Source: Sandaracinus amylolyticus (GTDB lineage: Bacteria > Myxococcota_A > Polyangia > Polyangiales > Sandaracinaceae). From it: a stretch of DNA of 64,000 nucleotides. Below are positions 9,058 to 23,928 of this stretch, piece by piece. The notes below the pieces were generated by a model. It did no database searches. It was given only the letters and a program-made list of their open reading frames with translations, and was not told where the DNA came from. Each line of letters opens with the position of its first letter. Position 1 is the first letter of the stretch. The position numbers and the translations under genes are program-made. The stretch covers positions 4,030,001-4,094,000 of the forward strand of contig NZ_CP011125.1 in NCBI RefSeq assembly GCF_000737325.1, written 5' to 3'.

Positions 9058-10650
9058 TCACTTGCGCGACTTCTTGCGCGCCTGCTTCTGAAGCTTGCGC
9101 AGGTGCTTCTTCTTGTTCTTGTCGCCGGGCTTGATCGCCTTCGGCGCGCCCTGGCCGCGCATCATCGCGGCCATCGGGCCCTCGCCCGCGACCGCCGCCT
9201 CGAGCAGCTGATCGGCGAGCGACGACATCATCGGGTTCGTCTCGAGACCGGTGGTGCGCACCATCTCGTTCAGGCGCTTGGCCATCGCCATCTGCTTCAT
9301 GCCCGGCAGGCGCTGGAGCAGCCCGGCCTGCTGGCCGATGTCGCCCATCATCTGCTTCATGAACGAGAAGCGCTGGAGCAGATCGACGACGTCCTTGTCG
9401 CTGCGCCCCGAGCCCTTCGCGACGCGCTGGATGCGGCCCTTGTCCTTCGTGAACAGCTCGGGCTCGATGCGCTCGCGCTTCGTCATCGAGCTGACGATCG
9501 CCTCGGCGCGCTTGAGCTCCTTCTCGTCGACCTGGAAGCCCTCGGGCACGCTGTCGGCGAAGAAGGGCAGCTTCTCGAAGAGGTCCTGCAGCGGGCCCAT
9601 CTTCTGGAGCATGCGGATCTGCTCCAGGAAGTCGTGGAGCGTGAAGCGCCCCTCGAGCATCCGCTTGGCGTCCTGCTCGGCCTTGTTCTGGTCGACGACG
9701 CCTTCGAAGTCCTTCATCAGGCCGACGACATCGCCGAAGCCGAGGATCCGGCTGGCCATGCCCTCGGGGCGGAACTCCTCGAGCTTGTCGAGGCCCTCGC
9801 CCATGCCGACGAACTTCACGGGCGCGCCCGTGACCTCGCGGATCGACAGCGCGGCGCCGCCGCGCGCGTCGCCGTCGAGCTTCGTCATCACGACGCCGGT
9901 GAGGCCGAGGCGCTCGTGGAACGCGGCCGCCGTCTTCACGGCGTCCTGACCGATCATCGCGTCGACGACCATGAAGACGTTGTCCGCCTTCGTGTTCGTC
10001 TTGATCTGCTGGAGCTCGACCATCAGCGGCTCGTCGACCGCGAGACGGCCCGCCGTGTCGTAGATGATCACGTCGCGCTTGAGCTTGCGCGCGTGGTCGA
10101 TCGCCTTCGTGCAGATGTCGACGGGGCGACCGCCGGGGATCGAGAACACCGGGATCGAGAGGCGCTCGCCGAGCACCTTGAGCTGCTCGATCGCGCCCGG
10201 GCGCTGCACGTCGGCCGCGACGAGGAGCGGCTTCTTCCCCTGCGACTCGAGAAGACGCGCGAGCTTGCCCGACGTGGTCGTCTTACCGGAGCCCTGGAGG
10301 CCGACCATCATGATGCCGGTCGGCTGCGGGGCCTTGGCGTGCACGAGCGCCGGGCCCTCGCTCTTCATCATGCCGACGAGCTCGTCCTGGCATGCCTTGA
10401 TGAAGCGCTCGGCCGGGCCGATCTTGATCTTCTTGCCCTTGGCCTCGACCTCGTTGGTGATCGTCTCGCCGATCACCGACTCCTTCACGCGGCCGAGGAA
10501 ACGCTTCACGACGCCGAATTCGACGTCGGCCTCGAGCAGCGAGAGGCGCACGTCGCGGAGCGCCGGCTCGAGGTTCTCCTCGTTCAGCTCGGTCAGGCCC
10601 GCGAGACGGTTCCGCGCGGCGCGGAACCCCTTGGTCAAGGTCTCGAACAT
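9058..10650 (-). CDS. ffh: Signal recognition particle protein Ffh
   Basis: A 530-residue SRP GTPase that with 4.5S RNA targets nascent membrane proteins to FtsY and SecYEG. It has the N-terminal four-helix domain (1-100), the G1 loop GLQGSGKTTT (117-126), DVQRPGA, DTAGR, TKLDGDARGG, and a methionine-rich M domain (about 325-490) with the RNA-binding helices (GSGRSDKDVVDLLQRFSFMK, then MMGDI). The C-terminus is a Lys/Arg-rich tail (KNKKKHLRKLQKQARKKSRK), which makes it longer than the usual 450-500 residues. I did not find the SRP RNA gene in the window. The start ATG begins MFETLTKGF, as in most orthologues. Confidence 0.97.
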   Translation of the reverse strand: MFETLTKGFRAARNRLAGLTELNEENLEPALRDVRLSLLEADVEFGVVKRFLGRVKESVIGETITNEVEAKGKKIKIGPAERFIKACQDELVGMMKSEGPALVHAKAPQPTGIMMVGLQGSGKTTTSGKLARLLESQGKKPLLVAADVQRPGAIEQLKVLGERLSIPVFSIPGGRPVDICTKAIDHARKLKRDVIIYDTAGRLAVDEPLMVELQQIKTNTKADNVFMVVDAMIGQDAVKTAAAFHERLGLTGVVMTKLDGDARGGAALSIREVTGAPVKFVGMGEGLDKLEEFRPEGMASRILGFGDVVGLMKDFEGVVDQNKAEQDAKRMLEGRFTLHDFLEQIRMLQKMGPLQDLFEKLPFFADSVPEGFQVDEKELKRAEAIVSSMTKRERIEPELFTKDKGRIQRVAKGSGRSDKDVVDLLQRFSFMKQMMGDIGQQAGLLQRLPGMKQMAMAKRLNEMVRTTGLETNPMMSSLADQLLEAAVAGEGPMAAMMRGQGAPKAIKPGDKNKKKHLRKLQKQARKKSRK

Positions 10651-12441: not shown

Positions 12442-12920
12442 GGCTTCGGCGAAGCTGCTCGACCCGTAGGGTGACCGATGGCGAGCTTGGCGAAGCTGGC
12501 CGAGCGCTGAGATCAACGGATTGCGAGCTTGGCGAAGCTGGCCGAGCGCTGAGGTCAACGATCGCGAGCTCGGCGAAGCTGGCCGAGCGCTGAGATCAAC
12601 GATCGCGAGCTCGGCGAAGCTGGCCGAGCGCTGAGATCAACGATCGCGAGCTCGGCGAAGCTGGCCCAGCGCTGAGATCAACGGATTGCGAGCTCGGCGA
12701 AGCTGGCCGAGCGCTGAGATCAACGGATTGCGAGCTCGGCGAAGCTGGCCGAGCGCTGAGATCAACGATCGCGAGCTCGGCGAAGCTGGCCGAGCGCTGA
12801 GATCAACGATCGCGAGCTCGGCGAAGCTGGCCGAGCGCTGAGATCAACGATCGCGAGCTCGGCGAAGCTGGCCGAGCGCTGAGGTCGACGGATCGCGAGC
12901 TCGGCGAAGCCTTCGGACAT
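12442..12920. repeat. 41/42-bp tandem repeat array, about ten full copies
   Basis: This holds most of the 760-bp gene-free stretch between the RCC1 lipoprotein and the inositol phosphatase. Units beginning gcgagctcgg start at 12481, 12523, 12564, 12605, 12646, 12688, 12730, 12771, 12812, 12853 and 12895, spaced 41 or 42 bp. Diverged half-copies flank both ends. Each unit carries CTCGGC and GCCGAG arms around gaagctg, so each RNA or single strand can fold into a hairpin. Because 41- and 42-bp units alternate there is no common reading frame, so it is not coding. Units are joined directly with no unique spacers, so it is not CRISPR. From 12921 to 13112 I see nothing recognisable. Confidence 0.95.
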
Positions 12921-13112: not shown

Positions 13113-13994
13113 ATGAGCGCCGCGACCTCCCCGATGACGCTCGACGCGAACGACCTCGACACCATCCTCCGCGACGCCCTGCCCGTGGCCCGCGCCGCGG
13201 CGAAGGTGCTCGCCGACCGATGGCGTGGCACCCCCGAGGTGCGGTCGAAGTCGCGCAGCGATCTCGTCACCGACGCCGATCTCGCGAGCGAGTCGCTCAT
13301 CCGCGAGCAGCTGACGGCGCGCTTCCCCTCGCACGCCATCGTCGGCGAAGAGGGCGGCGGGGAGGGCGGCGCGCTCGCGTGGTTCGTCGATCCCCTCGAC
13401 GGCACCACGAACTTCGCGCACGGGCATCCTTTCTTCTGCGTCTCGATGGCGCTGGTGCACGAGGGCGAGCCGGTCGTCGGCATCGTGATCGCGCCCGCGC
13501 TCTCGCTCGAGTGGTCGGCCACGCGCGGCGGCGGCGTCACCCGCAACGGCGCGCGCTGTCAGGTGTCGCAGACGACGCTCCTCGACGACGCGCTGCTCTC
13601 GACGGGATTTCCCTCCTGGCGCGCGAGCCGCGGCGACAACAACTACCGTGCGTTCCTCGCGCTCGACGCGGCGACGCACGGCGTGCGACGTTGCGGCGCC
13701 AGCGCGATCGAGATCGCGATGGTCGCCGACGGATCGTACGACGCGTTCTGGGATCTCGGGCTGAAGCCGTGGGACGTCGGCGCGAGCACGCTCTTCGTGC
13801 GCGAAGCGGGCGGTCTCGTCACGGACTTCGACGGGTCACCGGTCGCGCTCGACGCCGGTCGCATCCTCGCGAGCAACGGTCGGCTGCACGCGCGTCTGTC
13901 GCGCGCGCTCGCGGGCGACGTGTCGCTCCCGCCGATCGACGGTGTCGAGCATCGGGCGGGGCCGCACTTGCGGCGGCCCGGAGAAGTGGGATAG
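13113..13994 (+). CDS. Inositol monophosphatase family protein
   Basis: 293 residues from ATG 13113; GTG 13083 and ATG 13134 are alternatives. The family's metal-binding motifs are intact: IVGEEGGGEGG (Glu pair), WFVDPLDGTTNFAHG, and GLKPWDVGA. It should dephosphorylate inositol-1-phosphate, or a related sugar phosphate such as histidinol-phosphate or fructose bisphosphate, with Mg2+. Its place 2 kb upstream of a myo-inositol-1-phosphate synthase on the same strand favours inositol phosphate: together they convert glucose-6-phosphate to myo-inositol. A GCCCGC...GCGGGC hairpin lies immediately after the stop. Confidence 0.9.
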   Translation: MSAATSPMTLDANDLDTILRDALPVARAAAKVLADRWRGTPEVRSKSRSDLVTDADLASESLIREQLTARFPSHAIVGEEGGGEGGALAWFVDPLDGTTNFAHGHPFFCVSMALVHEGEPVVGIVIAPALSLEWSATRGGGVTRNGARCQVSQTTLLDDALLSTGFPSWRASRGDNNYRAFLALDAATHGVRRCGASAIEIAMVADGSYDAFWDLGLKPWDVGASTLFVREAGGLVTDFDGSPVALDAGRILASNGRLHARLSRALAGDVSLPPIDGVEHRAGPHLRRPGEVG

Positions 13995-13996
13995 TC

Positions 13997-14027
13997 GCCC
14001 GCTTTCTTGCGGGCCTGATTCTTGGGA
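13997..14027 (+). terminator. Possible terminator after inositol monophosphatase
   Basis: GCCCGC (13997-14002) and GCGGGC (14009-14014) enclose tttctt, followed by a mixed T-rich stretch ctgattcttgggatttt. Confidence 0.45.
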
Positions 14028-14151
14028 TTTTCGCTGATCGCTCGTGGTTCGAGCGCGGCGTCGAGAGGACCGAGACGGTTGGCGCGTTCGCGCCGGTGAG
14101 GCTAGACCCGCGCGCCGCCCGGGCCTGGAGAGAGCAAGCCGAGAGGGCCAG

Positions 14152-15894
14152 ATGGAAGCACGCAGCACGATCGATTCGAGCTCGGTGTCCGGTTCGAGCA
14201 CGGTGTCGGATCCGAGCGCGGTGTCTAGTCCGAGCGCCGTCTCGGCCTCACTGCACGGGACGACGACGGTGAGCAACGGCCACCACCTGGGCACGCGATC
14301 GGTCGATCACCAGGGGTCGCGCACGCTGAAGCGCAGCGCGTATCCCCGCAGCGTCGGTCAGGCGCTCCTCATGGCCGCCCGCGTGCGCGTCGCGCTGTGG
14401 GATCGCGCCCTGCGCAACGTCGAGGAGGTGCAGACCAAGCAGCTGCGCCGCATCGTCGACCACGCGCGGAACACGACGTTCGGTCGTCGCCACGGCTTCG
14501 CCGACATTCGCTCGTGGGAGCAGTTCGCGGCGCGCGTGCCGGTCGGCGACTACGACTCGCACTCGCCGGCGTTCGAGGCGATGCGCACGGGCGAGACGGG
14601 CATCCTCGTCCCCGAGAAGATCAAGTACTTCGGCAACTCGAGCGGCAGCTCGACCAAGGGCAAGCCGAAGTTCCTCCCGATCGCCGAGCGTCAGGTCGCG
14701 TTCCAGCGCGGCAGCGCGGCGGACTCGATGTACCGCTACCTCGTCTGGCGCGGCGAGGACGACTTCACGAGCGGCTACACGCTCGGGCTCTTCCCGCCGA
14801 CGACGATGCGCAAGGAAGGCCCCGTCTTCATCACGACGAACCCGTCGCTGCAGTCGGTGAAGATGCCCGCCTTCACCAAGGTCTGTCAGATCCCCGAGCC
14901 CGAGATCCGCGAGATCGCGGACTACGACTACAAGCTCGAGCGCATCGCGGACCGCTATCTCGATCACGACGTGCGCGCCGTCGCGGGCACGACCTGCTGG
15001 TTCTCGATCCTGTTCGACAAGCTGCTCGCGGCGGCGGCGCGTCGCGGTCGCAAGGCCGACTCGGTGCGCGACCTCTGGCCGAACCTCCGCGTGCTCGTCG
15101 GCGGCGGCGTGAGCGCCGATCCGTACATGCCCGTCATCCGCGAGCGCATGGGCCGCGACGACGTGGTGCTCGTCGACACGTACAACGCGACCGAGGGCGG
15201 CATCTTCGCGTGCAGCGATCACAGCGGTGAGCGCGGCATGCTGATGATCCCGGATCGCGGCGTGTTCTACGAGTTCGTTCCGGTCGAGGACGCGAGCGAC
15301 CTGACGAACATCGGGCCGTGGGCGCGCCGCGTGCCGCTGTGGGGCGTCGAGAAGGACAAGCTCTACGCGATCCACGTCACGACGGTCTCGGGGCTCTACT
15401 CGTATCGCCTCGGCGATCTCGTGCGCTTCACGTCGACCGATCCGTATCGCATCGAGTTCGCGGGCCGCGTGAGCGGCTGTCTGTCGACGACGCAGGAGCT
15501 CACGACGCACGTCGAGATCCAGCGCGCCGTCGAGCACGCGCTCACCGCGATCCCCGCGACGACCGTCGACTACGGCTGCGCCGCGGACGTCGGCGTGAAC
15601 GGCACCGCGCGCTCGCGCTACGTGCTGTTCGCCGAGTTCGAGCCGGGCCACGCGCCCGCCGATCTCGCGGCGTTCGCCCGCGCGTTCGACGAGGGGCTCT
15701 GCCAGCAGAACCGCGTCTATCGCGAGCACCGCAAGGACGACGTCGGCATCTTCGCGCCGGAGCTCGTCGCGCTGCCGCCCGGCTCGGTGAAGCGCTTCAT
15801 GAAGGACATCGGGAACACGAGCGTGCAGAGCAAGTTCCCGCGCATCCTCGACGACGAGCGCAAGCAGCTCCTGCGCACCTACGTCCAGAGCTGA
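14152..15894 (+). CDS. GH3 family acyl-acid-amido synthetase-like protein
   Basis: 580 residues from ATG 14152. From about residue 80 it matches the bacterial GH3 family (acyl-adenylate/firefly-luciferase superfamily): a helical lead-in ending TTFGRRHGF, then KIKYFGNSSGSSTKGKPKFL (phosphate-binding Ser/Gly loop), VLVGGGVSADPY, VDTYNATEG (adenylate motif), and YSYRLGDLVRF. GH3 enzymes adenylate a carboxylic acid and couple it to an amine, usually an amino acid. The first 60-70 residues are Ser-rich low complexity built on an 18-bp DNA repeat. ATG 14371 (MAARVRVALW) is a plausible later start. It lies between the inositol phosphatase and inositol-phosphate synthase genes. The natural acyl and amine substrates are unknown. 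Confidence 0.85.
   Translation: MEARSTIDSSSVSGSSTVSDPSAVSSPSAVSASLHGTTTVSNGHHLGTRSVDHQGSRTLKRSAYPRSVGQALLMAARVRVALWDRALRNVEEVQTKQLRRIVDHARNTTFGRRHGFADIRSWEQFAARVPVGDYDSHSPAFEAMRTGETGILVPEKIKYFGNSSGSSTKGKPKFLPIAERQVAFQRGSAADSMYRYLVWRGEDDFTSGYTLGLFPPTTMRKEGPVFITTNPSLQSVKMPAFTKVCQIPEPEIREIADYDYKLERIADRYLDHDVRAVAGTTCWFSILFDKLLAAAARRGRKADSVRDLWPNLRVLVGGGVSADPYMPVIRERMGRDDVVLVDTYNATEGGIFACSDHSGERGMLMIPDRGVFYEFVPVEDASDLTNIGPWARRVPLWGVEKDKLYAIHVTTVSGLYSYRLGDLVRFTSTDPYRIEFAGRVSGCLSTTQELTTHVEIQRAVEHALTAIPATTVDYGCAADVGVNGTARSRYVLFAEFEPGHAPADLAAFARAFDEGLCQQNRVYREHRKDDVGIFAPELVALPPGSVKRFMKDIGNTSVQSKFPRILDDERKQLLRTYVQS
14179..14250 (+). repeat. 18-bp minisatellite in the 5' part of the GH3 gene
   Basis: Four degenerate 18-bp units (14179, 14197, 14215, 14233) encode S-[STA]-V-S-x-[SP] hexapeptides. 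Confidence 0.85.
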
Positions 15895-16049
15895 TTTTCG
15901 AGCCAAGCACGGGGCCGCAGCCGACCCAAAGGCTGCGCCCGGGCCTTCGCGAGCACGCCGCTCGCTCTCCCGGTGACCGCGGTCTTCGCGAAGACTCGAC
16001 GCCGCGAACACGAACGAAGTACGCGAGAGAAGGAACAGAGGAAGAAGAC

Positions 16050-17261
16050 ATGGGTAAGAAGCTCGGAGTCGTGATCGTCGGCGTCAACGGCGCCGTCGCC
16101 TCCACCGTCATCGCGGGTGTGGAGCTGATGGTCCGCGGCCTCGCGCCGCGCGTCGGCATGCTCACGGAGCCCGGCAACCCCGCGCCCGGCGAGCAGATCC
16201 TCGATCACCTCTCGTTCACGGCGCTCGAGGACATCGTCTTCGGCGGCTGGGACCTGCAGTTCTCGGACGTCTACGCGGCCACGAAGCACCACGGCGTGCT
16301 CCCCGACGCGCAGCTCGATCAGGTCAAGGACAAGCTCCAGGCGATCAAGCCGTGGCCGGCCGTGTTCAGCGGTGAGTACGCCGCGAACGCGAAGGGCGAC
16401 AACGTCGTCAAGGTGAAGAACTTCCGCGAGGAGCTCGCCCACATCGAGAAGACCATCACGGACTTCAAGAAGGCGAACAACTGCGAGACCGTCGTGATGG
16501 TCAACCTCGCGTCGACCGAGCGCTACCAGGAGCTCCTCGACGTCCACAAGACGCTCGCGGCGTTCGAGAAGGGCCTCGACGAGAACCACTCGGCGATCGC
16601 GCCCGCGATGCGCTACTTCTACGTCGCGAACAAGCTCGGCGTCCCGTACTGCAACTTCGCGCCGTCGCTCACGAACATCCCGGCGCTGCAGGAGCAGGCG
16701 AACGAGCTCCGCAATCCCTATTGCGGCATGGACGGCAAGACCGGCCAGACGCTGCTCAAGACGGCGCTCGCGTCGATGTTCCGCCTGCGCAACCTGAAGG
16801 TCGTGGGCTGGTACTCGGTCAACTTCCTCGGCAACAACGACGGTCTCGTGCTGGACAACCCGGCGTCGAACAAGACCAAGGTGCTGTCGAAGGCGGCGGT
16901 GCTCGACTCGATCGTCGGCTACCGCGTCGAGAACCACCAGGTCCACATCCACTACTACAAGCCCCGCGGTGACGCGAAGGAAGCGTGGGACAACATCGAC
17001 ATCGGCGGCTTCTGCGGCGTGCCGATGCAGATGAAGATCAACTTCCTCTGCCAGGACTCGATCCTCGCGGCGCCGCTGGTCCTCGACATGGTCCGGCTCG
17101 TCGAGGTCGCGAAGGCGCGCGGCGAGAAGGGCATCCAGCGCCAGCTCTCGATCTACTTCAAGTCGCCGTACACCGGCGAGGGCGAGAAGGCGGAGCACGA
17201 CGTCTTCGAGCAGGAGCGCATGCTCATGAAGTGGTGCCGCGAGCACGCGGACAAGAAGTGA
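16050..17261 (+). CDS. ino1: myo-Inositol-1-phosphate synthase
   Basis: 403 residues, the compact prokaryotic form. The NAD-binding loop VGVNGAVAST is at residues 10-19. The catalytic domain shows the family motifs NFAPSLTNIPALQEQA, GMDGKTGQTLLKTALA, VGWYSVNFLGNNDG and NKTKVLSKA. The enzyme converts glucose-6-phosphate to 1D-myo-inositol-3-phosphate (same as L-1-phosphate) using bound NAD+. The ATG follows cagaggaagaagac, an AGG-rich ribosome site. A hairpin with a weak T-rich tail follows the gene. In bacteria the product feeds inositol lipids, mycothiol-like thiols or compatible solutes. Here the neighbours (phosphatase, GH3, aminotransferase, lipid transporters) favour a lipid or aminocyclitol. 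Confidence 0.95.
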   Translation: MGKKLGVVIVGVNGAVASTVIAGVELMVRGLAPRVGMLTEPGNPAPGEQILDHLSFTALEDIVFGGWDLQFSDVYAATKHHGVLPDAQLDQVKDKLQAIKPWPAVFSGEYAANAKGDNVVKVKNFREELAHIEKTITDFKKANNCETVVMVNLASTERYQELLDVHKTLAAFEKGLDENHSAIAPAMRYFYVANKLGVPYCNFAPSLTNIPALQEQANELRNPYCGMDGKTGQTLLKTALASMFRLRNLKVVGWYSVNFLGNNDGLVLDNPASNKTKVLSKAAVLDSIVGYRVENHQVHIHYYKPRGDAKEAWDNIDIGGFCGVPMQMKINFLCQDSILAAPLVLDMVRLVEVAKARGEKGIQRQLSIYFKSPYTGEGEKAEHDVFEQERMLMKWCREHADKK

Positions 17262-17398
17262 TCGGATTCCCTGCCGGAGCTCCGCTCCGGTGTCTCCTCG
17301 TACCGCCGCGCGGGATCCTCGCTCCGGGCTGAACGTCGATCCCAGAGCGAGCATCCCGTCAGCGCTACGAGGCGAGCTCTCCGCAGCTCGCCGTGAAT

Positions 17399-17439
17399 TA
17401 CGGGCCCGTCTGCGTCATCGTGGACGGGCCCGTTCGTCT
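17399..17439 (+). terminator. Hairpin between ino1 and the aminotransferase gene
   Basis: Perfect 11-bp arms acgggcccgtc (17399-17409) and gacgggcccgt (17422-17432) enclose a 12-nt loop and are followed by tcgtctct. A smaller CCGGAGC-tcc-GCTCCGG hairpin lies at 17274-17290, just after the ino1 stop. The aminotransferase therefore probably has its own promoter or depends on read-through. Confidence 0.6.
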
Positions 17440-17464
17440 CTCCAGCCCGGAACGAGGTCTCTCG

Positions 17465-18787
17465 ATGAGCAGCAAGTTGGCGGTTCTCGGTGGGTCGCCG
17501 GTGATCGATCGGAGTCGACACGGCAAGTGGCCGGTCGTCGACGACGACTGCCGCAAGGCCGTCATGGCCGTGCTCGATCGTGGTGTGATGAGCGGCTCGG
17601 AAGCGCCCGAGGCCCGCGCATTCCAGGAAGAGTTCGCCGCGTTCCAGGGCGCCAAGCACGCGCTGCTCACGCACTCGGGCACGAGCGCGCTGCAGGTCGC
17701 GATCGGCGCGCTCGGCATCGGCGAGGGCGACGAGGTGATCATCCCCGCGTACTCGTTCGTCGCGACCGCGCTCGCGATCGTGACGCAGGGCGCGATCCCG
17801 ATCTTCGTCGACGTGGGTGAGGACGGGAACCTCGACGCGTCGAAGCTCGAGGCCGCGATCTCGCCGCGGACGAAGGCGATCATGCCGGTGCACGTGCACG
17901 GCATGCCCGCGGATCTCGACGCGATCGCCGAGGTGGTGAAGCCGCGCGGCATCGCGATCATCGAGGACGCGGCGCAGGCGCACGGCGCGACCTACGGCGG
18001 CAAGAAGGTCGGCACCTACGACGCGGGCAGCGGCTTCTCGCTGCAGTCGAGCAAGAACCTGTCGGCGGGTGAGGGCGGCGTCTACGTCACGAACGACGAG
18101 GACGCGCTCGATCGCGCGAACAAGATCCGCAACTTCGCGCAGAACCTCGCGCGTGTCGGCACCGGCAAGTGGAACGCGGAGCGTCCGCTCGACGGCAGCA
18201 CGCACGTGTCGACGGGCATCGGCTCGATGTACCGCGGCAACGAGATGATGGCGGCGTTCGCGCGCGCGCAGCTGCGCAAGCTGCCCGAGCGCACCGCGCG
18301 TGCGCAGGAGAACGGGCTGCGGCTCGGCAAGGCGCTCGCGCAGCTTCCGGGCGTCACGCCTCCCATCGTTCCCGCGAATCGAACGACGGTGTTCCATAAG
18401 TACCGCGTATGGATCGACCCCGTCGCGGCGGGCGTCGATCTGAGCCCGACCGAGATGCGCGACGCGGTGCGCAAGGCGCTCGCGGCCGAGGGCGCCGAGG
18501 TCGTGATGTGGCAGAGCGATCCGATGCCCGCGTACCCGGTGTTCCAGGATCTGCGCGGCTACGGGAAGGGCTTCCCGTGGAGCGCGGGGGACGTCGATCG
18601 CGTGAAGGCGAACTATCGCCCCGAGAATTTCCCGACGTCGCGTCGCCTGCTCGACTCGTCGATCGTGCTCTTCTCGCAGACGTGCCCGCTGATCGCGCAG
18701 GACGCGGCGACCGTCGATGCGTACGCCGACGCGTTCCGCAAGATCTGGGAGCACCGCGCCGATCTCGTGCAGGTCGCGAAGGGCTGA
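17465..18787 (+). CDS. DegT/DnrJ/EryC1/StrS family PLP aminotransferase
   Basis: 440 residues. Class V-like aminotransferase of the sugar/cyclitol family. Visible are HSGTSALQVAI (phosphate-binding turn near 70-80), EDAAQAHGA (D168 facing the PLP ring nitrogen), and SLQSSKNLSAGEGG with the Schiff-base Lys at 197. The last phrase is closest to the QQ(S/T)K..(T/S)AGEGG of scyllo-inosose and AHBA-type aminotransferases rather than to the SFH.TK of sugar-nucleotide members. That would fit a keto-cyclitol substrate next to ino1, but no inositol dehydrogenase is present here. Start ATG 17465 has gaggtctctcg upstream. It is followed after 10 bp by the membrane-protein gene. Confidence 0.88.
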   Translation: MSSKLAVLGGSPVIDRSRHGKWPVVDDDCRKAVMAVLDRGVMSGSEAPEARAFQEEFAAFQGAKHALLTHSGTSALQVAIGALGIGEGDEVIIPAYSFVATALAIVTQGAIPIFVDVGEDGNLDASKLEAAISPRTKAIMPVHVHGMPADLDAIAEVVKPRGIAIIEDAAQAHGATYGGKKVGTYDAGSGFSLQSSKNLSAGEGGVYVTNDEDALDRANKIRNFAQNLARVGTGKWNAERPLDGSTHVSTGIGSMYRGNEMMAAFARAQLRKLPERTARAQENGLRLGKALAQLPGVTPPIVPANRTTVFHKYRVWIDPVAAGVDLSPTEMRDAVRKALAAEGAEVVMWQSDPMPAYPVFQDLRGYGKGFPWSAGDVDRVKANYRPENFPTSRRLLDSSIVLFSQTCPLIAQDAATVDAYADAFRKIWEHRADLVQVAKG

Positions 18788-18797
18788 CGACGTCACG

Positions 18798-19868
18798 ATG
18801 AGCGCGCCCGACTCGGATCCCGCCGCTGCGCCCTCGATCACCTCCGGCTCGACGGAGAAGGAGGGGAGCGCGCGCTGGCGTTGGATCAAGCGGATCGGGC
18901 GCGCGTTGCTCTTCGTGCTCGGCGTGACCGCCGTCGTGCTGCTCGTGCGCGAGGCGGGTCCCGATCGTGTGCTCGAGACGCTCGTGCAGGCGGGTCCGTG
19001 GATCCCGCTGATCGTGCTGCTCGAGTGCTGCTTCATGGGCATGGACGTCGTCGCGCTGCGCGGGCTCATGGGCGAGCGCGGACGGCGGGTGCCGACCGCG
19101 GTCTGGGTGCGCACCGCGTTCCTGCAGTACGGCGTGATGCAGCTCCTGCCGGCGGGGCGCGCGGGCGGTGAGGTCGCGCGCGCGGCGGGGCTCTCGCCGT
19201 ACGTCGGGGGTGCGGCGCGCGCGGCCGCGGCCGCGACGCGCCTGCAGGCCGCGACGCTGCTCGGCAACACGATCATCTCGATCCCGTGCGCGATCGGCGT
19301 CGCGCTCGCGGTCGACATGCCCGTCGCGGAGAGCCCGCTGTTCTGGGCGATCGTCGGCAACGGCCTGATCACCGCGGTGATCGGCGGCGCGATCGTGCTC
19401 GCGAGCCGCAAGTCGTCGCTCGGCGAGTGGCTCGGGCGTCGCGTGCCGATGCTCGCGGCGCACGGCACGAGCTTCGACGCGGCGCTGCGTCAGGACACGC
19501 CGTGGTCGCCCGCGATCGTCGCGACCGCGATCGGTCGCGTGTTCCAGACGCTGCAGTACGGGCTCATCCTGCTCGCGGTCGGCGGCTCGCTGACGATCGT
19601 GAGCGCGCTCGTCTCGCAGGGCATCCACCTCGTCGGCGCCGGCATGGGCGACATGGTGCCGAACCAGGTGGGCATCACCGAGGGCGCGTATCGCTTGTTC
19701 GCGCCTGCGCTCGGGCTCGAGAACGAAGCCGCGCGGGCGATCGGCATCGCGCTCGTCGCGCGCATCTGCCAGTTCTCGCTCGCTGGGACGTGCCTGATCG
19801 TGAGCGCGCTCTGGAAGGCGAGCCCGGCCGACGTCGCCGTCGACGACGGCGCGACGGTCGAGCCTTGA
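18798..19868 (+). CDS. LPG-synthase transmembrane family protein (PF03706/UPF0104)
   Basis: 356 residues with about eight membrane segments. It begins with a charged cytoplasmic N-terminus and shows the family patterns LQYGVMQLLPAGRAGGEVARA and GAGMGDMVPNQVGITEGAYR (conserved P..G..E...R elements of PF03706). The family includes the flippase half of MprF and several lipid or glycolipid translocases; the soluble aminoacyl-transferase half is absent here. It lies 10 bp after the aminotransferase gene and 7 bp before the MMPL gene, so all three are almost certainly one operon. A role in flipping a lipid made by the upstream enzymes is inference. Confidence 0.8.
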   Translation: MSAPDSDPAAAPSITSGSTEKEGSARWRWIKRIGRALLFVLGVTAVVLLVREAGPDRVLETLVQAGPWIPLIVLLECCFMGMDVVALRGLMGERGRRVPTAVWVRTAFLQYGVMQLLPAGRAGGEVARAAGLSPYVGGAARAAAAATRLQAATLLGNTIISIPCAIGVALAVDMPVAESPLFWAIVGNGLITAVIGGAIVLASRKSSLGEWLGRRVPMLAAHGTSFDAALRQDTPWSPAIVATAIGRVFQTLQYGLILLAVGGSLTIVSALVSQGIHLVGAGMGDMVPNQVGITEGAYRLFAPALGLENEAARAIGIALVARICQFSLAGTCLIVSALWKASPADVAVDDGATVEP

Positions 19869-19875
19869 GGGCGCC

Positions 19876-22410
19876 ATGAGCTGGGCGCGCCTCGCGCGCG
19901 CGCAGCACGCGCGGCCGTGGGCGTTCGCGGTCGTCGCGCTGCTCCTGTCGCTCGGCGCGCTCCCGCTCGTCTCGGAGCTCGAGCTCGACAGCGACTTCCA
20001 GGCGCTGCTGCCCGAGCACGCGCCCGCGGTGCGCGACCTCGACGAGATCCGCGCGCGCTTCGGGGGCACGTCGACGCTCGCGCTCGCGATCACGGCGAGC
20101 GAGGGCACCGACGTGCGCGAGGCGCGCGAGCTCGCGCGCGCGCTCGCGCCGCGCATCGAGGCGATGGACGCGCTCCAGGTCGCGTCGGTCGACTGGAACG
20201 TCGCGGACTTCGAGCGCTTCGTCTCGGAGCATCGCCATCTCTATGCGGACCTCGACGATCTCGTGGCGATCCGCGACGCGCTGCAGGAGCGGCTCGATTG
20301 GGAGCGCGCGCGCGCGAACCCGTTCTTCATCGATCTCGGCGACGACGCGCCGCCGGATCCCGAGGCGGTCATCGAGCGCATCGAGCGCGACGCGGACGAG
20401 GCGCGGCGCGCGATGGATCGCTTCCCCGAGGGCTTCTACCAGCACCCCGAGGAGCCGATCGTCTTCGTCTTCGTGCGCACAGGGATCCGCGGTGGCGAGA
20501 GCGGCGCGATCGATCGGCTGATCGCGGCGATCGAGCGCGAGGCCGACGACATCCGAGGCACGCGCGCGAGCGCGTCGCGCAGCGCGGGTACGAGTGTGGG
20601 ATGGGAGTCGGACGCGCTGCGCATCGACTACGGCGGCGACCTGATGGACGTCCGCGAGGAGAACGAGGCGCTCGAGGAAGCGGTGCGGAGCTCGACGATC
20701 GTCACGATCGTCCTGATGCTCGCGGCGATCTTCGTCTTCTTCATGCGGTGGCGCGCCGCGGTACTCCTGCTGCTCACGCTCGTCGCGCCGACGCTCGTGA
20801 CCTTCGCCGCGGCCGAGCTCGTCGTCGACTACCTCAACGCGTCGAGCGCGTTCCTCGGCTCGATCATCGTCGGCAACGGCGTGAACTCGAGCGTGATGTG
20901 GCTCGGTCGCTACTTCGAGGAGCGGCGCGCGGGTCGCGACGTCGTCGGCGCGATCCGCGCCACGCACGAAGGCACGTGGGCGGGCACCTTCGCGGCGGCG
21001 CTCGCGGCTTCGCTCGCGTACGGCTCGCTGCTCGTCACGGACTACCGCGGCTTCCGCGACTTCGGCTTCATCGGCGCGCTCGGGATGCTGCTCTGCTGGG
21101 TCGCGGCGTACGCGATCCTCCCGGTGCTCGTCGTGATCAGCGAGCGCTGGCGTCCGATGGTGTTCCGCGACCGCGAGAAGCGCCTCAAGGGCGTGTACGG
21201 GGTGCTCTTCGCGAAGCTCGCGCTCGATCGGCCGCGCGCGACGCTGGTCGTGTGCGTGCTGCTCTCGCTCGTCTCGGCGATCGGCGTCGGGCTCGCGATC
21301 GCGGGCGATCCGCTGGAGTACGACTTCCGCAATCTTCAGGCGGAGCGCGGCGAGGAGAGCCGCGTCGCGCAGATCAACGCGTGGATGGGCGAGACCGTGG
21401 AGGAGACGCGCACCGGCAGCGCGCTCGCGATCCTCGCGCCCACCCGCGACGACGTCGCGTCGCTCCGCGCGCAGCTCGAGCGCTACGGCGAGAACCATCC
21501 GAACGTGATCGGCGCGGTGCGCACCATCGAGGACCTGATGCCGCGCGATCAGGACGCGAAGCGTCCGGTGATCGCCGAGCTGCGGCGCCTGCTCCTCGAC
21601 GTGCGGCCCCACGTGAGCGCGGATCGACAGCGTCAGATCGACGAGCACGTGCCGCCCGAGCGCATCGCTCCGGTGCGCCCCGAGGACCTGCCCACGAGCG
21701 TGTCGCGTCCGTTCATGGAGCGCGACGGCACGCTCGGTCGCCTGGTGTTCGTCGAGCACGCGGAGGGGCGCGACACCTGGGACGGTCGCTACATGATCGC
21801 GTGGTCGACCGCCGTGCGCTCGGTGCGCACCGAGCGCGGCGCGCGCCCCGCGGTGGCCGGTGTCGCGGTGGTGTTCAGCGATCTGCTGCAGACGATCTTC
21901 GAGGACGGCCCCCAGGCGATCGGCGCGTCGTTCGTCGCGACGATCGTCCTGCTGCTCTTCACGTTCCGGCGTCAGCGCGAGCGCGCGCTCGCGCTCGTCT
22001 CGATGTTCGCGGGCGTGCTGTGGATGATCGGGCTGCTCGCCGCGACCGGCGCGCGCCTCCACTTCCTGAACATGATCGCGTTCCCGATCACCTTCGGGAT
22101 CGGCGTGGAGTACGGCGTGAACTACGTGAAGCGCTTCCTCGAGGAGAAGGAGGCGCACGGCGGCGACGGTGTGGTCGCGGCGCGCGCGGCGCTGGAGGGC
22201 GCCGGCGGCGCGGTGATCCTCTGCTCGCTCACCACGCTCATCGGCTACGTGTCGCTCTACACGTCGGCGAACCGCGCGCTCAACTCGTTCGGCCTCGCGA
22301 TGTCGCTCGGCGAGGTGACGTGCGTGATCTCCTCGTTGCTCGCGCTGCCGGCGATCTTGCACCTCCTCGAGTCGCGCGCGCGCGCAAAGGCGACGATCGG
22401 TGCGGAGTAG
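19876..22410 (+). CDS. MMPL/RND family lipid exporter (HpnN-like)
   Basis: 844 residues. Two repeats, each with a lone membrane helix, a periplasmic domain and a bundle of about five helices (first bundle about 270-430, second about 680-840). The motif GSIIVGNGVNSSVMWLGRYF and its counterpart FPITFGIGVEYGVNYVKRFL mark the MMPL helix-4 equivalents. Conserved acidic residues occur in the first periplasmic segment (ELDSDFQALLPE). The arrangement is that of MMPL exporters such as HpnN, which moves hopanoids to the outer membrane. It is 7 bp after the flippase-like gene and 27 bp before an MCE gene, linking it to lipid movement across the envelope. The cargo is unknown. Confidence 0.85.
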   Translation: MSWARLARAQHARPWAFAVVALLLSLGALPLVSELELDSDFQALLPEHAPAVRDLDEIRARFGGTSTLALAITASEGTDVREARELARALAPRIEAMDALQVASVDWNVADFERFVSEHRHLYADLDDLVAIRDALQERLDWERARANPFFIDLGDDAPPDPEAVIERIERDADEARRAMDRFPEGFYQHPEEPIVFVFVRTGIRGGESGAIDRLIAAIEREADDIRGTRASASRSAGTSVGWESDALRIDYGGDLMDVREENEALEEAVRSSTIVTIVLMLAAIFVFFMRWRAAVLLLLTLVAPTLVTFAAAELVVDYLNASSAFLGSIIVGNGVNSSVMWLGRYFEERRAGRDVVGAIRATHEGTWAGTFAAALAASLAYGSLLVTDYRGFRDFGFIGALGMLLCWVAAYAILPVLVVISERWRPMVFRDREKRLKGVYGVLFAKLALDRPRATLVVCVLLSLVSAIGVGLAIAGDPLEYDFRNLQAERGEESRVAQINAWMGETVEETRTGSALAILAPTRDDVASLRAQLERYGENHPNVIGAVRTIEDLMPRDQDAKRPVIAELRRLLLDVRPHVSADRQRQIDEHVPPERIAPVRPEDLPTSVSRPFMERDGTLGRLVFVEHAEGRDTWDGRYMIAWSTAVRSVRTERGARPAVAGVAVVFSDLLQTIFEDGPQAIGASFVATIVLLLFTFRRQRERALALVSMFAGVLWMIGLLAATGARLHFLNMIAFPITFGIGVEYGVNYVKRFLEEKEAHGGDGVVAARAALEGAGGAVILCSLTTLIGYVSLYTSANRALNSFGLAMSLGEVTCVISSLLALPAILHLLESRARAKATIGAE

Positions 22411-22437
22411 AATAGAGTTGCCCCGCTTCCTTCCCGC

Positions 22438-23928
22438 ATGCGCGATCAGCTGAAAGCCGCCCGTGTCGGGGCGCTCGTCGTCGCCGCGCTCGTCGCCGCG
22501 TTCCTCGTCTATCGCGCCGTCGACGAGTCGAGCACGCGTGGCGGCGGCTACCGCGTCTACGCGCTCTTCAACGACGCCCAAGGGCTCATCACGAAGTCGC
22601 GCGTGACGATCGCGGGCATCACCGTCGGTCGCATCGAGCGCATCACGCTCCAGGGCGCGCAGGCGCGCGTCGACATGGTCATCGACGACGAGGTCGAGCT
22701 CTACGAGGACGCGAGCGTGCGTCGCGTCTCGGCCTCGCTGCTCGGCGAGTACCTGCTCGCGATCCACCCCGGCACCGCGACCCAGCCGCGCCTCGAGGAC
22801 GGCGACCAGATCATGGTCGTCGAAGAGACGCCGGGGATGGGCGACATCATGACCGACGTCGGCGCGATCGCGAGCTCGGTGCGCGCCGTGTCCGCGCAGC
22901 TCGAACGGAGCTTCGGCACCGACGAAGCGGGCCAACAGATGGCCAGCGCGCTGCGGAACCTATCCGAGGCCCTCGAGGCGGTGAACCGCACGATCCGCGC
23001 GAACGAGGAGTCGGTCGGCGCGACGCTGCAGAACATCGAGGCGATCACGGCCGACGCGCGCCCGCTGCTCGAGGAGATCCTGCGCGACATCCAGCGCGTC
23101 ACCGAGGACATCCGCGAGGTCGTCGAGGCGAACCAGGCCGACATCGATCAGGGCGTCGGCGAGGTCGACGACACGATCGCGTCGATCCATCGCGCGAGCG
23201 AGCAGCTCGAGCTGGTGCTCGCGGACGTGGGCGAGATCACCGAGCGCACCGCGGCGGGCGAGGGCACGCTCGGTCGTCTCACCACCGACGAGCACCTGAT
23301 CGACGAGGTCGAGACGACGGTCGAGGGCGTCAGCGACGTGCTCGGCAGCTTCGTCCGCCTGCGCACGATCATGGAGCTGCGCAGCGAGTACAACTTCCTC
23401 GCGAACACGTTCAAGAACTACTTCTCGATCCGCATCCTCCCGCGAGAGGGCCGCTACTTCCTCGTGCAGCTGATCGACGATCCGCGCGGGCGCACGCAGA
23501 TCACCACGACGCAGGTGCGGCGCAGCCCGCCGCCCGACGGCGAGCCCGAGTTCTACGAAGAGACGCGCATCACCACGACCGAGCAGCTCGTCTTCACGCT
23601 GATGCTCGCGCAGCGCGTCTACTTCGCGACGTTCCGCTTCGGCATCCTCGAGTCGAGCGGCGGCCTCGGCGTCGACCTCAACTTCTTCGACGAGCGGCTC
23701 GAGATCAACGCCGACATCTTCCAGTTCGGGTACTCGCAGTTCCCGCGCGTGCGCGTCCGCGCGTCGTTCGAGCTGGTGTCGAGCCTCTACATCCTCGGCG
23801 GTGTCGACGACTTCCTGAACGAGAGGACGGTCGACATCTTCCTCGGCGCGATGCTGCGCTTCGACGACGAGGACCTCGCGAACCTGTTCCCGTTCTTCGG
23901 CGGCGCCGTCGGCGGCCTCGGGAACTGA
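22438..23928 (+). CDS. MlaD/MCE domain protein with C-terminal beta-barrel-like domain
   Basis: 496 residues. One N-terminal membrane helix (about 10-26), an MCE domain (about 38-127, NDAQGLITKSRVTIAGITVG and LLGEYLLAIHPGT), and a long helical segment (about 140-300). The C-terminal 180 residues alternate hydrophobic and polar positions in many short strands (YFLVQLIDDP, LVFTLMLAQRVYFATFRFGI, LGVDLNFFDERLEINADIFQ, RVRVRASFELVSSLYILGGV). I read this last part as an outer-membrane or lipid-binding beta domain. MCE proteins form tubes or needles that carry lipids between the membranes. It is 27 bp after the MMPL gene. A TAGAAT box overlaps the MMPL stop and may give it its own promoter. Confidence 0.85.
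   Translation: MRDQLKAARVGALVVAALVAAFLVYRAVDESSTRGGGYRVYALFNDAQGLITKSRVTIAGITVGRIERITLQGAQARVDMVIDDEVELYEDASVRRVSASLLGEYLLAIHPGTATQPRLEDGDQIMVVEETPGMGDIMTDVGAIASSVRAVSAQLERSFGTDEAGQQMASALRNLSEALEAVNRTIRANEESVGATLQNIEAITADARPLLEEILRDIQRVTEDIREVVEANQADIDQGVGEVDDTIASIHRASEQLELVLADVGEITERTAAGEGTLGRLTTDEHLIDEVETTVEGVSDVLGSFVRLRTIMELRSEYNFLANTFKNYFSIRILPREGRYFLVQLIDDPRGRTQITTTQVRRSPPPDGEPEFYEETRITTTEQLVFTLMLAQRVYFATFRFGILESSGGLGVDLNFFDERLEINADIFQFGYSQFPRVRVRASFELVSSLYILGGVDDFLNERTVDIFLGAMLRFDDEDLANLFPFFGGAVGGLGN

Follow-up and report, generated by a model that had tools for sequence, protein, structure and literature searches.

A conserved gene cluster of Sandaracinus amylolyticus predicted to build and export an amide-linked amino-polyol lipid

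Introduction

What does a bacterium make with a myo-inositol-1-phosphate synthase (Ino1), an aminotransferase, an amide-forming GH3 enzyme and lipid exporters encoded side by side? The question is raised by a locus at positions 13113-23928 of the window, the 64,000-nucleotide stretch of the Sandaracinus amylolyticus genome analysed here (NZ_CP011125.1, positions 4,030,001-4,094,000 of a complete, single-contig genome of 10,327,335 bases). Inositol lipids are uncommon in bacteria, where those known are made by CDP-alcohol chemistry; lipids built by GH3 enzymes have been described only recently, with an ornithine head group. An operon that joins these enzymes to lipid exporters predicts a head group absent from the literature we searched, and a literature search on inosamine or aminocyclitol lipids in bacteria found no papers. 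We propose, with moderate confidence, that the locus is a co-inherited biosynthesis-export operon whose product is an amide-linked amino-polyol lipid, most probably an N-acyl aminoinositol with a ketone precursor that would arise by a separate oxidation. The proposal builds on gene families, intact catalytic residues, gene order and co-occurrence, and from these we infer every substrate, the order of the steps and the direction of transport. For lipid chemistry, it defines a molecule to look for, an inosamine amide, and it offers a role for bacterial GH3 enzymes outside ornithine lipids.

Results

Gene families of the locus

Searches with hidden Markov models (HMMs) against Pfam and NCBIfam bore out the seven families that the initial annotation had read on one strand, each as an intact open reading frame (ORF) and all co-directional:

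13113..13994, + strand: inositol monophosphatase family phosphatase (IMPase); PF00459 5e-66, DPLDGTTN and WD motifs
14152..15894, + strand: GH3-type acyl-acid amido synthetase; GH3 N, M and C domains 3e-31, 4e-15 and 2e-13
16050..17261, + strand: myo-inositol-1-phosphate synthase (Ino1), clade A; PF07994 2e-68, PF01658 1e-34
17465..18787, + strand: DegT/DnrJ/EryC1/StrS aminotransferase; PF01041 4e-78
18798..19868, + strand: MprF/HpnL-type flippase-like membrane protein; HpnL TIGR03476 51 bits, MprF 25 bits
19876..22410, + strand: HpnN-like MMPL (RND) putative lipid exporter; PF03176 8e-31 in two stretches
22438..23928, + strand: MCE (MlaD-like) protein; PF02470 2e-14, N-terminal transmembrane (TM) segment

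The gaps between successive genes are 157, 155, 203, 10, 7 and 27 bp, and the spacing of 7-27 bp reported earlier for the last four genes is thus exact; the short gaps after the IMPase, GH3 and Ino1 genes could each hold a promoter. The two Ino1 domains lie over their curated cut-offs (PF07994, 231 bits against 25; PF01658, 119 bits against 27), with inositol-3-phosphate synthase 7nwr as the best solved match, and all three GH3 domains are likewise over cut-off, with the motifs SSG, YxAxEGG and GD invariant in 16 aligned sequences. In the aminotransferase, the pyridoxal phosphate lysine K197, E167-D168 and Q171 are invariant. The IMPase scores under all NCBIfam equivalog cut-offs, which leaves its substrate phosphate ester to inference.

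A distinct Ino1 clade with conserved neighbours

Across 116 genomes of the order, the Ino1 homologues divide into a close group, at about 61% identity and above, and an ordinary group at 41-52%. The maximum-likelihood tree places the close group in a clade of its own, clade A (support 100/95), apart from the ordinary myxobacterial and Bacteroidota Ino1 proteins; the nearest named record to the Ino1 of this locus, at 87% identity, is from an uncultured Sandaracinus. A second Ino1 of the same genome (L005, G000:C1:1419750-1420964) falls in the ordinary clade; by eye, ORFs near it resemble a glycosyltransferase, a radical-SAM protein and a sugar epimerase.

The neighbours of clade-A Ino1 were counted by hand, a genome being testable where its contig continues past the gene. 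Of 21 genomes, 19 have the GH3 gene immediately upstream of Ino1; the aminotransferase gene follows Ino1 directly in 18 of 19 testable ones, and the flippase gene comes next after the aminotransferase in 16 of 17; an IMPase gene occurs at most 10 kb away in 15 genomes, and an MMPL gene within the cluster in 12, from several families. In contrast, neither a GH3 nor an aminotransferase gene occurs at the 22 ordinary Ino1 loci of the order, each covered over 20 kb or to the contig end. Five Myxococcota families keep the order GH3-Ino1-aminotransferase-flippase, two others retain pieces or a remnant of it, and the grouping spans three orders and two classes. Such recurrence across families, orders and a second class means that the co-location is not due to chance, and the earlier idea of one locus serving one pathway holds, since the core four genes stay together in relatives rather than scatter. 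The MCE gene was part of that idea too, and here it stands for one family only: in each of the 10 sampled Sandaracinaceae genomes it adjoins the cluster, and no genome examined outside that family has it there.

Of 379 Myxococcota genomes, 14 have clade-A Ino1, 13 the GH3 and 10 the aminotransferase, the three sets being nested; Fisher tests of their co-occurrence gave 3e-23, 7e-17 and 2e-17, values that kinship inflates, yet the set covers several families. Four genomes have the clade-A Ino1 and no aminotransferase match, and in three of them (G026, G104 and G253) the contig ends at or inside the cluster; the fourth, G329, is a genome of 77% completeness. In addition, pairwise distances of the Ino1, GH3, aminotransferase and flippase proteins are correlated at r = 0.85-0.94, a level reached by 0 of 2000 permutations. 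One family of another class nests among the Polyangiales sequences, with 96/90 support at one fork and less at the next, a placement suggesting that the whole cluster has passed between lineages as one unit. Scanning a contig set with the Ino1 detected clade-A-like genes only in Myxococcota-like records and one unassigned bacterium, although a more distant form could escape such a scan; the next Ino1 relatives, from Acidobacteriota, have no GH3 or aminotransferase gene nearby. In an alphaproteobacterium (L124), an aminotransferase gene 6.5 kb away from a distantly related Ino1 looks unrelated, at 37% identity and with other neighbours. We conclude that the seven genes almost certainly form one functional module.

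A probable amide lipid rather than an inositol phospholipid

No CDP-alcohol transferase had been noticed in the locus, and this gap is real and conserved. None of 19 clade-A loci carries the CDP-alcohol phosphotransferase motif, whereas 9 of the 22 ordinary Ino1 loci in the order do, as do many loci from Bacteroidota. Inositol lipids known from Bacteroidota are made by the CDP-alcohol route, and a dedicated Ino1 starts the known bacterial inositol lipid pathways (PMC9246714). Bacteroides thetaiotaomicron BT_1522-1526 resembles our locus in that its lipid genes are clustered with a dedicated Ino1; however, it uses a CDP-alcohol phosphotransferase and a lipid-acting phosphatase, neither of which is present here, and its Ino1 belongs to another clade (PMC9246714). 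That precedent would allow an ordinary inositol lipid, phosphatidylinositol or inositol phosphoceramide, as the product, with the aminotransferase and the GH3 enzyme serving another purpose. We consider this highly improbable, given the absence of the motif from clade-A loci, the second Ino1 of ordinary clade in the same genome, and the near-constant company of GH3 and aminotransferase genes around clade-A Ino1. The missing motif makes an ordinary phosphatidylinositol pathway unlikely, and phosphatidylinositol itself is disfavoured as the product; together with the adjoining GH3 gene, it makes an amide lipid the better reading.

A close biochemical parallel comes from the ornithine-lipid pathway of Singulisphaera, where the GH3-like OlsH joins a free fatty acid to ornithine with ATP, giving N-acyl-ornithine; its describers anticipate that further GH3-like enzymes of bacteria act on different amino acids (PMC12493201). 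Both systems have a GH3-like enzyme, which in the OlsH/OlsI pathway makes an amide lipid from a free amine, a free fatty acid and ATP, but no OlsI-type O-acyltransferase was recognised here, and the Ino1 and aminotransferase beside the GH3 point to another head group.

Transport proteins

The flippase has no Pfam match, its two NCBIfam matches are both under cut-off, and it has at least six predicted TM segments; a relative in another cluster (L136) matches LPG_synthase_TM weakly. The MMPL protein is HpnN-like only, with 207 bits against a cut-off of 752 (TIGR03480). Thus, HpnN and HpnL of hopanoid transport are the best-scoring families for the MMPL protein and the flippase, but both scores are well under cut-off and no hopanoid biosynthesis genes were recognised in the locus.

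MCE systems are mostly regarded as lipid importers, and the MCE protein is here paired with an MMPL pump rather than the usual ABC transporter; the MMPL protein and the flippase suggest that transport would be outward. A TM segment occupies residues 10-28, and the predicted model, at a mean predicted local distance difference test (pLDDT) of 46, comprises MCE strands (37-129), helices (134-307) and about 12 strands (309-475). The hydrophobic alternation of the C-terminal strands is 3.41, against 1.66 +/- 0.37 in shuffles, and we suggest, with low confidence, that the C-terminus may form an outer-membrane beta-barrel and the protein may span the envelope. The predicted succession of TM helix, MCE domain, long helical stretch and C-terminal strands with barrel-like alternation resembles that of the long trans-envelope MlaD of Veillonella parvula (PMC10665443); unlike in that system, the MCE gene here comes after an MMPL gene and not MlaE/MlaF, and the barrel is predicted at low confidence.

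Discussion

Our data suggest a pathway in which clade-A Ino1 would convert glucose-6-phosphate to inositol phosphate and the IMPase would remove the phosphate at some stage. An oxidation, which in other lineages may be performed by a GMC oxidoreductase of the cluster, would then give an inosose (keto-inositol), and the DegT aminotransferase would turn its ketone into an amine. The GH3 enzyme would join a free fatty acid to this amine at the expense of ATP, the acid perhaps coming from an aldehyde dehydrogenase and GMC pair. The flippase would bring the lipid to the periplasmic leaflet, from which the MMPL protein would extract it, and in Sandaracinaceae the MCE protein, possibly reaching the outer membrane, would carry it onward.

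Several observations weigh against this proposal. The N-acyl aminoinositol is a product predicted from gene content, and the locus holds no recognisable second acyltransferase. The 77% complete genome carries a clade-A Ino1 (60% identity; L055 10001-11188, G329 / G116) with neither a GH3 nor a close aminotransferase gene found, the single exception to the co-occurrence, and another genome (G113) has its GH3 gene on a different contig.

The substrate of the aminotransferase is the next point. The motif FSLQSSKNLSAGEGG at residues 191-205 had been read as the mark of a cyclitol-type enzyme like StsC, which we take to be a cyclitol aminotransferase of aminoglycoside pathways. The motif is not diagnostic and was rejected as proof, because AHBA synthase and Fic25 share its Gln. 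The predicted model (pLDDT 85; residues 225-258 unreliable) is closest to Fic25 (PDB 8gyh, 8gyi and 8gyj) over its full length, with Z 50 and 38% identity over 410 residues, followed by a Serratia enzyme (Z 48), AHBA synthase (Z 46), DesV and PerA (Z 45) and BtrR and RbmB (Z 44-45). Fic25 presumably aminates a polyhydroxy keto amino acid, in line with its PDB title; it belongs to another pathway, ficellomycin biosynthesis, with an amino-acid chain as substrate, and is a structural neighbour only. BtrR and RbmB, from aminoglycoside cyclitol pathways, share the DegT fold and the pyridoxal phosphate lysine, but score below Fic25, and no aminoglycoside genes lie near this locus. The cyclitol enzymes and the nucleotide-sugar enzymes (DesV, PerA) tie, and sequence scores are likewise mixed; structure therefore does not decide the substrate. 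This tie, and Fic25 as the nearest enzyme, would suit an aminotransferase that acts on a nucleotide sugar or an amino-acid-derived ketone, with the GH3 enzyme acylating that amine and inositol serving as a further head group or osmolyte. However, the clusters show no recognisable nucleotide-sugar genes, be it for a nucleotidyltransferase, a dehydratase or a glycosyltransferase, and in 18 of 19 genomes the aminotransferase gene sits right beside Ino1, so that we regard such a substrate as quite unlikely.

The acid partner is also uncertain. The best NCBIfam model for the GH3 enzyme is OlsH (NF052613), at 240.9 bits against a cut-off of 620, and the protein is thus not an OlsH equivalog; its PDB matches are plant GH3 enzymes only. 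Plant GH3 enzymes act on small acids such as jasmonate and auxin. Moreover, GH3 paralogues of 49-50% identity in two genomes (G012 and G018; L133 9118-16077 and L134 4881-10454) stand with an aldehyde dehydrogenase but lack Ino1 and aminotransferase genes, and a GH3 enzyme of this kind need therefore not always act on aminoinositol; these loci perhaps make another amide product. They also hold another GMC oxidoreductase and encode a protein that has no Pfam or NCBIfam match, and L133 adds a P450-like ORF (by eye). With a GH3 enzyme resembling the plant small-acid enzymes, an aminotransferase nearest to the antibiotic-pathway enzyme Fic25, and an RND/MMPL family that exports small molecules too, the product might be a small secreted aminocyclitol conjugate, a natural product in which GH3 joins a short or specialised acid and the MMPL protein exports the result. 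Three features make this somewhat unlikely: HpnN/HpnL-like transporters and MCE proteins are lipid-handling families; the set is present in 10 of 10 sampled Sandaracinaceae genomes with genes evolving in step, unlike most natural-product clusters, which are patchy; and no regulators, resistance genes or tailoring enzymes were recognised.

The last point is the ketone. An inositol dehydrogenase had been listed as missing, and indeed the best IolG-type score in the complete genome, 105 bits, falls short of the cut-off of 355, a point against the proposed route in this genome; the gap nevertheless has candidates in the clusters of other lineages. In another order, one locus (L154) holds eight genes on one strand, encoding an aldehyde dehydrogenase, GH3, Ino1, aminotransferase, flippase, IMPase, MMPL protein and GMC oxidoreductase, and a second (L153) holds the same eight with the aldehyde dehydrogenase and IMPase genes inverted at the ends. 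One or both of the aldehyde dehydrogenase and GMC genes also adjoin parts of the cluster at five further loci (L018, L019, L024, L132 and L136). Their best homologues in the S. amylolyticus genome are unlinked, the GMC at 2492348 (48%) and the aldehyde dehydrogenase at 10115241 (56%). We regard both as candidates for the missing oxidation steps. Since the aldehyde dehydrogenase accompanies GH3 even in L133 and L134, its likelier role is to supply the acid; the role of the GMC oxidoreductase is ambiguous, its weak matches to choline-oxidase-type proteins giving no substrate.

A GMC oxidoreductase, an unrecognised dehydrogenase and direct use of an Ino1 ketone intermediate thus remain as sources of the ketone. 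The Ino1 mechanism passes through a ketone ring intermediate, myo-2-inosose-1-phosphate, the last before the product. If clade-A Ino1 released it, the aminotransferase could aminate it directly and the IMPase then dephosphorylate it, giving the same amide lipid with no dehydrogenase at all; the adjacency of the Ino1 and aminotransferase genes, the distinctness of clade A and the want of an IolG all accord with this route. Lost catalytic residues were considered as a signal of ketone release and were not seen: Lys277, Lys281, Lys310 and Lys371 align with lysines 274, 278, 306 and 367 of the Archaeoglobus enzyme, which in numbering and role we take to be its catalytic lysines. All four are kept, and several residues of clade-A Ino1 agree with the archaeal enzyme, with no sign that the final reduction has been lost. 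Ketone release would also leave NADH in need of re-oxidation, and several related clusters contain a GMC oxidoreductase. We therefore judge the direct route unlikely and prefer a separate oxidation on the way to the N-acyl aminoinositol. Bolder still would be a new class of membrane lipid, an N-acyl aminoinositol made without an inositol dehydrogenase, the aminotransferase taking the ketone of a specialised Ino1, with an MMPL pump coupled to a one-piece trans-envelope MCE protein bringing the lipid to the outer membrane; this combination is a long shot.

A few further features were observed. In L136 (G064:C55, about 9600-10350, minus strand), the N-terminus of GH3 and the C-terminus of the aminotransferase form one in-frame fusion, without Ino1, between the aldehyde dehydrogenase and the flippase of an otherwise familiar cluster, as if an internal deletion had removed Ino1 or the assembly were in error or collapsed. 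A second aminotransferase paralogue, at 45-46% identity, lies away from Ino1 and GH3 in two genomes (L129 9285-10598, G002; L130 3099-4427, G036). Finally, a 41-bp tandem repeat of about 10.5 copies with 95% matches occupies window positions 12476-12910, between a divergent RCC1-like gene and the IMPase gene.

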